From positions 1 through 64,000 of the forward strand of contig JAFIFE010000028.1 of NCBI GenBank assembly GCA_020832185.1: 64,000 bases of DNA. Direction: 5' to 3'. The notes beneath the pieces were generated by a model. The model was not told the DNA's origin. It did not search any database and saw nothing but the letters and a program-made list of their open reading frames with translations. Shown here one piece after another: positions 7,581 to 11,733 of the stretch (position 1 is its first letter; each line of letters begins with the position of its first letter). The translations under genes and the position numbers were made by a program. The stretch comes from Alkalibacterium sp. (GTDB lineage Bacteria > Bacillota > Bacilli > Lactobacillales > Carnobacteriaceae_A).

Positions 7581-7609
7581 TTGACAAGAGATTTAGATAA
7601 TGCTAATAT
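7581..7609 (+). promoter_or_regulatory. Sigma-A promoter of the cysteine operon leader
   Basis: -35 TTGACA (7581-7586), a 17-nt spacer and -10 TAATAT (7604-7609): a near-consensus promoter. Transcription would begin near 7616, giving a leader of about 240 nt up to the terminator before mccA. Confidence 0.88.
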
Positions 7610-7663
7610 CAAAAGTGAATCACCTATTACCTATCACGTATCAAGACTAAGGAGTGTTTAATC

Positions 7664-7783
7664 GTGCAAAAGACATTTTCAGAGAAGCAAATGGAGTGTT
7701 GCTGTACTTGCGTGCAGTTTATTTCTCATGCTCTCAAAAATGTTCTAGACGATCATAGTGATGGTACACTAGTAGACATGTAG
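7664..7783 (+). CDS. Cysteine-rich leader peptide (39 aa)
   Basis: A small ORF starting at GTG, 9 nt after AAGGAG (7649-7654), and ending at TAG 7781-7783. It begins MQKTFSEKQMECCCTC, so codons 12, 13, 14 and 16 are Cys (TGT, TGC, TGT, TGC). A run this dense is very unlikely by chance and is what a cysteine attenuator leader needs. The stop codon lies inside a small hairpin, TACACTA/TAGTGTA (7765-7787). The last 20 residues show no recognisable domain. An internal ATG at 7691 lacks a ribosome binding site. Confidence 0.8.
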   Translation: MQKTFSEKQMECCCTCVQFISHALKNVLDDHSDGTLVDM

Positions 7784-7821
7784 TGTAGATTAAATGACTA
7801 ACCGTTAGAATAATTTAGGGC

Positions 7822-7857
7822 GAGCGCATGAGGATCATTCCTTGTGCGCTCTTTTTT
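7822..7857 (+). terminator. Attenuator terminator before mccA
   Basis: GAGCGCA (7822-7828) pairs with TGCGCTC (7845-7851). After a TG/TG internal loop, AGGA pairs with TCCT around a TCAT loop. Six T follow at 7852-7857. It ends only two bases before the mccA ribosome binding site, so it can only act on this operon. Confidence 0.92.
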
Positions 7858-7872
7858 GGAAAGGAGGACATG

Positions 7873-9947
<2,075 letters not shown>

Positions 9948-9968: not shown

Positions 9969-10499
9969 ATGAAGGCTTTTAAAGAGTATATAGATACCTA
10001 CAAGAAGAATGACCCATCTGCAAGGACTACCCTTGAAATCATCCTGACTTATCCTGGTGTATGGGCACTGTTTTATCACCGGATCGCCCATTTTTTGTAT
10101 CAGCACCAGCTGATGCTGATTGCTCGGATGATTTCGATGCATGCACGGTGGCTGACAGGGATTGAAATACATCCAGGTGCCACGATAGGGAAGCGATTTT
10201 TTATTGATCATGGCATGGGGATCGTCATCGGGCAGACAGCCATAATCGGAGACGACGTGATCATTTTTCACGGTGTCACGTTGGGTGGAAGAGGCGATGG
10301 TGTAGGGAAAAGGCATCCAACGATTGAAGACGGAGTGCTCTTATCTGCTCATTCTCAAATAATCGGAAATGTCACAATAGGACGGCAGGCAAAAATCGGA
10401 GCAAGCGCAGTCGTGTTAAAAGATATACCGGAGGGCGTAACAGCAGTAGGTGTGCCAGCTGTAGTGGTTAAAACAAAGGAAGAAAATCAGATCGTGTAG
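9969..10499 (+). CDS. cysE: Serine O-acetyltransferase
   Basis: Makes O-acetylserine from serine and acetyl-CoA, the co-substrate for MccA next to it. After an N-terminal helical part the left-handed beta-helix of hexapeptide repeats runs from about residue 58, including GIEIHPGATIG, the catalytic-loop DHGMGIVIG and HGVTLGG. The length of 176 is the short Bacillota form, without the long N-terminal domain of the enterobacterial enzyme. It lies 21 nt after mccB. The same trio is known as a cysK2-ctl1-cysE2 type cluster in lactobacilli. Confidence 0.93.
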   Translation: MKAFKEYIDTYKKNDPSARTTLEIILTYPGVWALFYHRIAHFLYQHQLMLIARMISMHARWLTGIEIHPGATIGKRFFIDHGMGIVIGQTAIIGDDVIIFHGVTLGGRGDGVGKRHPTIEDGVLLSAHSQIIGNVTIGRQAKIGASAVVLKDIPEGVTAVGVPAVVVKTKEENQIV

Positions 10500-10522: not shown

Positions 10523-11170
10523 ATGGGAAGAGAATTTTTGAATGTGTTTTCGGGATGGGCTAGTGAATACGATTCTTTTGTAGAAGGAAAAGATGATCAG
10601 TACCGCGAAGTATTTAGAGGGTACGACACAATTCTGGAGACGATTGTGTCTCGTTCTGGCAAGTCAGTAATGGAATTTGGAATTGGAACAGGAAACCTGA
10701 CACTGAAATTGCTTGAAGCAGAAAAAAACGTCTGGGCCGTTGAACCCTCAGACGAAATGAGACAGCTGGCTATTGAAAAATTGCCTTCTGATACAGATAT
10801 CAAAGATGGGGATATGCAGGAATACCCGGTACCTGCCTACCCCATTGATACAATCGTCAGTTCATATGTTTTTCACCATCTAAATGACTCAGAAAAGAAA
10901 CGGGCTCTGAGTGACTATGCTAGTCGCTTATCCTCTGGAGGAAAAGTGATCTTCGCAGATACGCTATTCGCCTCAGAAGAAGAAAAAGACGCCATTATTG
11001 AGGAAGCAACAGCGTTAGAGTATGATGAATTAGTAGAAGATTTAAACCGGGAGTATTATCCTATGCTATCGGTTGTCTACAATGCTTTGAAAGAGGCAGG
11101 ATTTACTCAACTCTCATTTACTCAGATGAATGCGTTCGTCTGGATATTTGAAGGGACCGTTAAAAAATAA
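10523..11170 (+). CDS. yrrT: SAM-dependent methyltransferase, YrrT family
   Basis: A class I methyltransferase: motif I is VMEFGIGTGNLT (about residues 49-60), the acidic end of beta2 is VEPSDEM, and motif IV lies in IVSSYVFHHL. It closely resembles Bacillus subtilis YrrT in the opening residues (MGREFLNVFSGWA). B. subtilis yrrT also sits with mccA-mccB. It may produce S-adenosylhomocysteine that feeds LuxS, but its methyl acceptor is unknown. GGAGAGATGAGCT precedes the ATG. An mtnN nucleosidase, present in the B. subtilis operon, is missing here. Confidence 0.88.
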   Translation: MGREFLNVFSGWASEYDSFVEGKDDQYREVFRGYDTILETIVSRSGKSVMEFGIGTGNLTLKLLEAEKNVWAVEPSDEMRQLAIEKLPSDTDIKDGDMQEYPVPAYPIDTIVSSYVFHHLNDSEKKRALSDYASRLSSGGKVIFADTLFASEEEKDAIIEEATALEYDELVEDLNREYYPMLSVVYNALKEAGFTQLSFTQMNAFVWIFEGTVKK

Positions 11171-11191: not shown

Positions 11192-11674
11192 ATGTCAGAT
11201 AAAAAAATGAATGTTGAAAGTTTTAACTTGGACCACACGAAGGTAAAAGCGCCGTATGTCCGTGTAGCTGATCGTAAGTCCGGATCAAATGGCGACTTGA
11301 TCGTCAAATACGACTTGCGTTTCTCTCAACCTAATAAAGAACACATGGACATGATGGCTGTGCATTCTCTGGAACACCTGACAGCCGAGCATATTCGTAA
11401 CCATGCAGATTACATCGTCGATTTTGGACCGATGGGATGCCAGACCGGTTTTTACCTGACAGTCTTGAATCATGATAACTATGACGAAATCCTGGATGTC
11501 ATCGAAAAAACAATGCAGGATGTACTGGAAGCTGACGAAGTCCCGGCAAGCAATGAAGTCCAGTGCGGATGGGCTGCGCACCATACACTTGAAGGGGCTA
11601 AAGAAGTAGCTGAAACCTTCTTGTCTAAGCGTGACGAGTGGTCGATTGTTTTTGCAGAAGACGCAGTGAAGTAA
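11192..11674 (+). CDS. luxS: S-ribosylhomocysteine lyase LuxS
   Basis: Splits S-ribosylhomocysteine into homocysteine and DPD, the precursor of autoinducer-2. The zinc motif HSLEH is at His58-Glu61-His62, with the third ligand at about Cys125 ([10 protein letters not shown]). The catalytic Cys83 is in [10 protein letters not shown]. The length of 160 is typical. GAAGGAG lies 10 nt before the ATG. It is the last gene of the mccA-mccB-cysE-yrrT-luxS operon, so its homocysteine product is the substrate of the first enzyme. Confidence 0.97.
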
Positions 11675-11687
11675 ATAAATCACAGTT

Positions 11688-11733
11688 AAAAGATCAGCCA
11701 GAGAAGACCGTTTCTCTGGCTGGTCTTTTTTTT
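11688..11733 (+). terminator. Terminator of the cysteine/luxS operon
   Basis: A stem of AAAGA-CAGCCAGAGAA with TTCTCTGGCTG-TCTTT, followed by eight T. It is strong and lies 14 nt after the luxS stop. Confidence 0.92.

Follow-up and report, generated by a model that had tools for sequence, protein, structure and literature searches.

The stretch of Alkalibacterium DNA analysed here (64,000 nucleotides, in the following called the window) carries on its plus strand a leader locus followed by the five genes mccA, mccB, cysE, yrrT and luxS, for which co-transcription is predicted (Table 1). The names mccA, mccB and yrrT were taken over from the initial annotation. The best NCBIfam model for mccA was cysK with 304.5 bits, a score below the cut-off of that model. 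An inverted repeat of 11 pairs at 11695-11722, just past luxS, is a candidate terminator of the operon and was listed by the scan on the minus strand only. The same genome contains a second gene of the CysK/cystathionine beta-synthase type (G000:C23:11276-12190, L002; 40% identical), and no run of Cys codons was evident by eye in the 420 nt upstream of it.

Table 1 Features of the leader locus and of the genes behind it (window coordinates), and the leaders found ahead of permease genes
Feature	Position	Strand	Basis or remark
Promoter-like site: -35 TTGACA, 17-nt spacer, extended -10 TAATAT (TG before -10)	7581..7609	+	consensus scan
Shine-Dalgarno sequence AAGGAG of the leader ORF	7649..7654	+	sequence; nine bases 5' of the GTG start
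Leader peptide ORF, GTG start at 7664, 39 codons, MQKTFSEKQMECCCTCVQFISHALKNVLDDHSDGTLVDM	7664..7783	+	stop codon 7781-7783
Protector hairpin (segment 1:2), including an apical hairpin 7701-7718 over the Cys codons	7672..7744	+	fold
Cys codons 12, 13, 14 (7697-7705) and 16 (7709-7711), proposed stall site	7697..7711	+	read in the sequence
Antiterminator helix A, 5' strand (segment 2), TTCTCATGCTCTC	7723..7735	+	folds, swaps, hand-joined arms, duplex test, model
Antiterminator helix B, 5' strand, TGTTCTAG	7741..7748	+	hand-joined arms, arm swaps
Variable hairpin in the antiterminator loop, contains the stop codon of the leader ORF	7765..7787	+	fold; sequence varies among relatives
Antiterminator helix B, 3' strand, TTAGAATA	7805..7812	+	hand-joined arms, arm swaps
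Segment 3: terminator 5' arm, also 3' strand of helix A	7822..7834	+	folds, hand-joined arms
Intrinsic terminator: stem 7822-7851 (13 pairs), U-tract 7852-7857 (six T)	7822..7857	+	terminator scan; kept in 11/11 distinct leaders
mccA, PLP enzyme of the CysK/cystathionine beta-synthase family; start ATG 7870 or 7873	7870..8805	+	PALP above cut-off
mccB, cystathionine gamma-lyase/homocysteine desulfhydrase family	8808..9947	+	PRK07671 above cut-off; Cys_Met_Meta_PP
cysE, serine O-acetyltransferase	9969..10499	+	above cut-off for cysE and EpsC
yrrT, methyltransferase	10523..11170	+	Methyltransf_25
luxS	11192..11674	+	NCBIfam and domain matches
Permease leaders	L050:1266-1500 (same place as in L035), L059, L060, L062, L063, L064, L071, L072, L073, L077, L079, L153		upstream of an amino-acid ABC permease

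The leader ORF has a Shine-Dalgarno sequence and a start codon and is, as a prediction, translatable. Its 39 codons, its good ribosome binding site and Cys at codons 12, 13, 14 and 16 were recovered exactly as the initial annotation had described them. Cysteine accounts for 61 of 16,082 residues (0.38%) in the 46 ORFs of the window with at least 200 aa, and at this frequency the probability of four or more Cys in 38 codons is about 1.4e-5. The conserved run of Cys codons precedes genes for the conversion of methionine to cysteine (Met-to-Cys genes), and an intrinsic terminator lies between the leader ORF and the first of them. Only GG separates the end of this terminator from the ribosome binding site of mccA (AAAGGAGG, 7860-7867), the two-base distance that had been claimed. 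The promoter-like site was the best of 12 such sites between 6500 and 13500 (mean in shuffles 13.4), and seven terminator-like sites were found in the same interval compared with 5.7 in shuffles. Because these counts, taken together, are not above those of shuffled sequence, a single promoter and a single terminator rest on conservation in relatives; the arrangement of the promoter was also seen in most relatives of alignment A1 and in L017. The consensus promoter of the initial annotation is present as a promoter-like site, with its support coming from conservation and not from the scan.

The Rfam scan of the window matched no family at the leader locus and returned only 5S rRNA and tRNAs, all within 10-2678 (5S rRNA followed by two tRNAs at 10-330, and a cluster of four tRNAs at 2319-2678). 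No Rfam match above the gathering score was obtained in 28 loci, one of which is the window's own, and the T-box model RF00230 matched neither at the leader locus nor anywhere on contig C5. A T-box, an S-box or another known riboswitch was therefore rejected for this locus. The genome itself has 15 T-box matches elsewhere, 10 of them over the cut-off, and therefore very probably uses both T-box and leader-peptide control.

Competing structures in the leader RNA

Three alternative structures were predicted for the leader RNA: a protector hairpin, an antiterminator consisting of two helices (A and B), and the terminator. In the fold, the protector pairs 7672-7679 with 7737-7744, 7682-7685 with 7732-7735 and 7687-7689 with 7729-7731, and it spans most of the leader ORF; its middle stem takes different registers in Alkalibacterium and Marinilactibacillus. 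The initial annotation had drawn a protector between 7682-7693 and 7727-7735; a protector exists, but it is larger than that. The pairing of 7723-7735 with 7822-7834, now helix A, was confirmed with 11 Watson-Crick pairs, one G-U pair and one mismatch, and with a 5' strand that begins 11 nt past the last Cys codon. Complementarity of this quality has a p-value of 0.005 when the interval from the Cys codons to the terminator is shuffled. All parts of a protector/antiterminator/terminator switch are present as claimed, and to them has to be added helix B (7741-7748 with 7805-7812), which had been missed. The last two pairs of helix B take another register in the window's own fold. Since helix B shares 7741-7744 with the last stem of the protector, it competes with the protector and not with the terminator. 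The fold of 7610-7857 was matched by none of 200 dinucleotide shuffles (z = -4.05), and the same was true for 7720-7857 (z = -5.49); without the terminator 3' arm, at 7610-7835, the fold was unexceptional (z = -1.22, 24 of 200 shuffles as good).

Relatives of the leader were sought by way of mccA. A scan of named genomes gave ten mccA loci, with identities of 85-88% in Alkalibacterium olivapovliticus, A. pelagium and A. thalassium and of 68-72% in three Marinilactibacillus species. The other loci belong to Ectobacillus funiculus, Bacillus mediterraneensis and two MAGs, and by eye no such leader was seen upstream of mccA in Ectobacillus and Bacillus. Within the GTDB family of the window (f1), 11 of 27 genomes have an mccA orthologue (E ≤ 1e-80), and exactly these 11 were matched by the leader covariance model R1. 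The 11 matches follow by construction because R1 was built from these sequences, but the 16 absences do not; the underlying alignment was A3, in which L018 is shifted by one position in its last columns.

All 11 distinct leaders, the window's included, contain an in-frame ORF with a start codon and a run of Cys codons. The three adjacent Cys codons 12-14 and the Thr codon that follows them are kept in every one, so that the conserved Cys run which the initial annotation had proposed as a check among Carnobacteriaceae relatives was found. L004, L017 and L019 have another codon in place of the fourth Cys codon, and in L018 this Cys codon lies one codon away from its usual place. Past the Cys run, the Marinilactibacillus leaders and L018 contain an additional base and with it a +1 frame change; despite this, the nucleotides TATT..TCATGC..TCAAAAAT stay aligned (CCATGC in L018). 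Conservation is therefore at the level of codons for the Cys run and at the level of RNA for the block downstream. Complementarity of the kind seen between 7723-7735 and 7822-7834 was kept in all 11 leaders, and no member of the family retained the terminator while lacking either the Cys codons or this complementarity. The comparison within the family thus supports the interpretation as a cysteine attenuator, with corrections concerning the protector, helix B, the prevalence and the kinetics.

Folded as separate truncated stretches, the protector, the antiterminator and the terminator each formed in 11 of 11 leaders. On the MAFFT alignment A2, RNAalifold recovered nothing beyond the apical hairpin and the terminator, and no pair that had changed on both sides. 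The other helices were missed because the arms lose their common register through bulges and indels; duplex energies and a hand-joined alignment of 9 distinct rows and 17 pairs were used instead to compare the arms. In this alignment, which was joined on the proposed pairing and favours it, standard pairs made up 96.7% of the antiterminator cells compared with 91.0% in shuffles, 8 cells were changed on both sides, and the covariation score was 0.304 compared with 0.181; for each of these three measures, 0 of 500 shuffles did as well. Three pairs, all of them in helix B, show changes on both sides; since 154 of 500 shuffles reach that number, this measure alone is not distinctive. Eight of the 17 pairs never vary, and registers slid by 1-3 columns paired in 40-56% of cells. 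When own arms were compared with swapped arms by duplex energies, permutations as good as the real arrangement numbered 104 of 20000 for helix B, 708 of 20000 for helix A and 2 of 20000 for the protector, in a statistic that, like the shuffles, ignores the kinship among the leaders. The mean duplex energy of helix B was -9.37 kcal/mol with own arms and -4.92 kcal/mol across genera. In these comparisons helix B shows covariation between the genera Alkalibacterium and Marinilactibacillus that does not depend on the terminator, and covariation also supports the protector. For f1, the antiterminator is exclusive with both the terminator and the protector and has covariation support in the hand-joined arms. 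Sequence comparison supports the leader ORF, the Cys codons and all three alternative structures.

For the effect of translation, a ribosome stalled with its A site on Cys codons 12-16 was assumed to cover about 7679-7721; this footprint ends 5' of segment 2 and leaves 7723-7735 free. The stall was modelled by holding 7682-7718 unpaired in equilibrium folding of growing transcripts. In transcripts ending at 7832-7840, the model gave a probability of 0.99-1.00 for the antiterminator with a stalled ribosome, compared with 0.00-0.05 without a ribosome, when the protector stood at 0.95-1.00. A ribosome placed at the stop codon left the protector intact in the model (0.95 at 7836). In longer transcripts with a stalled ribosome, the modelled antiterminator probability went down to 0.26-0.37 for ends at 7842-7846 and to 0.06 at 7848; for the full-length RNA, the terminator was favoured with -51.8 kcal/mol compared with -41.6 kcal/mol for an enforced antiterminator. 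As the terminator wins at equilibrium even with a stall, the switch must act kinetically, during transcription. When each of the eleven leaders was folded over the part between its start codon and the terminator 3' arm, the antiterminator reached 1.00 in the stalled state in 11 of 11. Unstalled, it ranged from 0.02 to 1.00 and several relatives favoured it without a ribosome, and default termination in every one of the eleven therefore does not follow from equilibrium folding alone.

A terminator that is constitutive and partial and does no more than lower expression, with the pairing of 7723-7735 as a by-product of repeated CATGC-like sequence, would agree with terminator formation at equilibrium in either ribosome state. 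We nevertheless regard it as extremely improbable, given the independent covariation of helix B between the genera, arms that match better within species than between them, and an L. paracasei operon that differs about 8-fold between cysteine-free and methionine-free medium (PMC6004538).

We propose that the leader in all likelihood senses charged tRNA-Cys as a classical ribosome-mediated transcription attenuator. Under sufficient cysteine supply, the ribosome would clear the Cys codons and the leader RNA would refold into the protector hairpin; segment 3 would then be left to the terminator, and transcription would stop at 7857. When Cys-tRNA is scarce, the ribosome would stall on codons 12-16 and mask the 5' arm of the protector, but not 7723-7735. 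The latter, together with helix B, would pair to 7805-7834 before the terminator 3' arm is made, and RNA polymerase would read through into mccA-mccB-cysE-yrrT-luxS, provided that the antiterminator does not re-equilibrate in time for the terminator. Ribosome stalling at scarce cysteine thus very probably turns on the Met-to-Cys genes; we infer the stalling, its effect on read-through and the role of cysteine as the signal in Alkalibacterium from the arrangement described above.

Cysteine leaders across Lactobacillales

mccA was found in 54 of 295 Lactobacillales genomes (E ≤ 1e-90). Regions of up to 450 nt upstream of all 54 genes, that of L103 re-cut by hand, were searched for a Shine-Dalgarno-led ORF of 8-60 codons with clustered Cys codons; the pattern was relaxed to two adjacent Cys after the regions had been read, and the shuffles were given the same pattern. 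Leaders with two adjacent Cys precede 51 of the 54 genes, compared with 24 of 1,080 shuffles (2.2%); the reverse strand yielded none in the 54 regions. A cluster of three Cys in five codons occurs in 44 of 54 regions (shuffles: 10 of 1,080) and three adjacent Cys in 43 of 54 (1 of 1,080). Ten regions were negative under the stricter pattern, and six of these have leaders with fewer or spaced Cys codons. A hairpin with a T-run was detected after 50 of the 51 leaders, L101 being the exception. In three genomes of one genus (L093, L096 and L097; genus g22, family f2), no Cys leader precedes mccA and the upstream region is a different one. As read from these upstream regions, Cys leaders precede the Met-to-Cys genes in nearly all examined Lactobacillales that carry them. 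The initial annotation had called a cysteine leader-peptide attenuator unusual for Bacillota; it does seem unreported, but on the mccA operons of Lactobacillales a Cys leader is the rule.

A search with R1 in its own draw of 295 Lactobacillales genomes found no leaders outside f1, and the RNA sequences there must therefore be very different. Distant R1 matches in G046 and G053 were rejected as chance, as a Cys run is missing from both and the neighbouring genes are, by eye, of the LutC/LacI type. The antiterminator duplex test gave p ≤ 0.05 in 17 of 56 regions (from 50 genomes and 6 plasmid records), namely in 9 of 11 regions of f1, in 6 of 7 of f2 and in 2 of 38 others. An example from f2 is L088, where CACTCATGTC would pair with the terminator arm GTGCATGAGTG. 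Own and swapped arms did not differ significantly when f1 and f2 were left aside (2142 of 20000 permutations as good). Because of this result and of the 2 in 38, our claim of antitermination is confined to f1 and f2.

Relatives of mccA were also present in 37 plasmid records, seven of which were examined. Four Lacticaseibacillus plasmids (paracasei twice, casei and rhamnosus) carry cysK-ctl-cysE with the leader ...MFNAINCCCRTT(R/L)FWRCSAC, and a plasmid of L. fermentum has the leader MTNVFTKQAVCCCGARQ.... On the E. faecalis plasmid the leader ...ETESCCCMVQN... is annotated as hypothetical protein WP_002355203.1 (L158:2274-2411), which is probably the Cys leader peptide of the E. faecalis cysteine synthase operon. 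The plasmid of Priestia megaterium (Bacillales) showed no Cys leader.

For cysK2-ctl1-cysE2 of L. paracasei FAM18149, the published study reports a log2 difference of 2.9-3.2 (about 8-fold), with higher expression in cysteine-free than in methionine-free medium (PMC6004538). The 5'-UTR of the operon is described as having high read coverage, no T-box and a rho-independent terminator with AAGGGCGCGAAA-N16-TTTCGCGCCCTT, the terminator sequence being GGGCGCGAAA (PMC6004538). Premature termination was hypothesised there, an antisense RNA being named as an additional element, and the mechanism was called "yet to be discovered" (PMC6004538). We located the exact published terminator motif after the Cys leader of the L. 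paracasei plasmid pLC2W. The expression was measured for FAM18149 and the leader was read in pLC2W; taken together they appear to lend independent but indirect support to cysteine attenuation.

In principle, the leader could be an arrest or antibiotic-responsive peptide of the ermC type, in which the nascent chain or a drug would stall the ribosome and the Cys matter as residues and not as codons awaiting Cys-tRNA. The RNA anatomy would be the same, and arrest-type leaders have been proposed in Bacillota, for example uORFC-6-1 ahead of hflX (PMC8632094). We consider this highly improbable, since the 51 leaders share little beyond the Cys cluster (by eye), the downstream genes make cysteine, and the L. 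paracasei operon responds to cysteine supply (PMC6004538). Another improbable reading is that the terminator is under other control, be it by a promoter regulator (CymR, for example), an RNA-binding protein or a riboswitch not yet described, and that the ORF either has no part in it or codes for a small Cys-rich protein with a function of its own, as the annotation of the E. faecalis leader as a hypothetical protein would have it. No Rfam family was found at the locus, though the same genome has its 15 T-box matches elsewhere, and the chance rate of Cys leaders is far below the observed 51 of 54. Moreover, the frame after the Cys run differs in Marinilactibacillus while the nucleotides are conserved, and the downstream peptide is therefore not what selection acts on. 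Codons that await Cys-tRNA in a transcription attenuator remain our preferred explanation of the Cys run.

A second possible carrier of such leaders came from a weak R1 match in G136 (E = 0.054), which precedes two amino-acid ABC permease genes. The permeases match NCBIfam models (GlnP, cystine permease and others) with scores that do not reach the equivalog cut-offs, and the sequences nearest to the binding protein encoded downstream are PDB 2yjp and 1xt8, which we take to be L-cysteine receptors. A Shine-Dalgarno-led leader with two adjacent Cys was found in 12 of 46 orthologue upstream regions (45 from genus g17, one from g35; Table 1), compared with 14 of 920 block shuffles. Several of the other regions have spaced Cys codons and many have none. 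In the permease leaders inspected, terminator-like hairpins were visible and the RNA differs from that of the window; some of the peptides resemble the window's (KCCCSCMQFISHAEKF compared with ECCCTCVQFISHALKN). A DNA search in the genus of G136 gave only short matches, in 13 of 61 genomes with G136 included. The ABC transporter encoded by the operon behind these leaders may possibly carry cyst(e)ine.

Relation to known systems and occurrence beyond the order

The trp operon of E. coli has a classical amino-acid leader-peptide attenuator. The his attenuator is described as another (PMC9413887). The leader of the window resembles them in its run of codons for one amino acid, in its mutually exclusive protector, antiterminator and terminator, and in a terminator located just before the operon. 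It differs in that cysteine would be sensed, and in Bacillota, in that the protector extends over most of the leader ORF, and in that 45 nt separate segment 2 from the stop codon in the window.

Leaders with Cys codons have been described in other phyla. According to PMC8632094, uORFC-8-2 ahead of cysS in Rhodobacterales has two tandem Cys codons and lies in a hairpin that is followed by an intrinsic terminator. It is likewise a predicted case of cysteine attenuation, likened here by its description, and differs in belonging to Alphaproteobacteria and to a tRNA synthetase gene. Short polycysteine ORFs precede mycobacterial cys operons, for which Seliverstov 2005 (PMC1262725) gives no conserved terminator hairpins, and the mycobacterial cysteine leaders of Canestrari 2020 are called translation attenuation in a citing paper. 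These, too, are Cys-run leaders ahead of cysteine genes, with the difference that they occur in Actinobacteria.

A Cys-specific T-box senses the charging of tRNA-Cys. It likewise controls termination ahead of sulfur genes but differs in that the tRNA binds the RNA directly; one is reported for the glnP2 operon of L. paracasei (PMC6004538). Leader-peptide attenuators for histidine have been predicted in Bacillota (Naville and Gautheret 2010, PMC2965389; PMC9413887), which also use leader-peptide attenuation instead of a T-box and differ in amino acid, genes and taxa. In 2010, according to PMC2965389, leader-peptide systems had not been shown outside Proteobacteria and Actinobacteria, except for the atypical ermC and the new His leaders of bacilli. 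Among the matches listed from the open-licence literature, none named a cysteine leader-peptide attenuator in Bacillota in its title or at the start of its abstract. In kind, the mechanism proposed here is classical attenuation, and its cysteine specificity in Bacillota appears to be undescribed in the literature searched.

We think it likely that cysteine attenuation is the standard control of Met-to-Cys operons across Lactobacillales, that it travels on plasmids and that it has also arisen on, or moved to, ABC operons of the cyst(e)ine type. It would then be an undescribed, order-wide class and the missing mechanism of cysK-ctl-cysE. If this is true, a group thought to rely on T-boxes has an order-wide regulatory class of the leader-peptide kind, which would be the usual arrangement on this Lactobacillales operon, in the window's case within a genome that also has T-boxes. 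It would also offer a concrete mechanism for a regulation in L. paracasei whose cause was given as undiscovered in a work aimed at the sulfur flavour of cheese (PMC6004538). Annotated "hypothetical proteins" such as WP_002355203.1 would be explained as probable leaders.

Across the class, 202 of 398 genomes match mccA, and the loci considered were those of the best of these matches. Of the 29 such loci from outside Lactobacillales, one (L185) has a Cys leader; as judged from these loci, the leader on this operon is therefore mostly confined to Lactobacillales. The L185 leader, about 277 nt upstream of mccA, reads MANSKNYVLIKDYCCCMLPISSIQIRHAY and resembles leaders of family f3 such as CCCCMVRKSSIPICHAY, a likeness for which transfer is a possible explanation.
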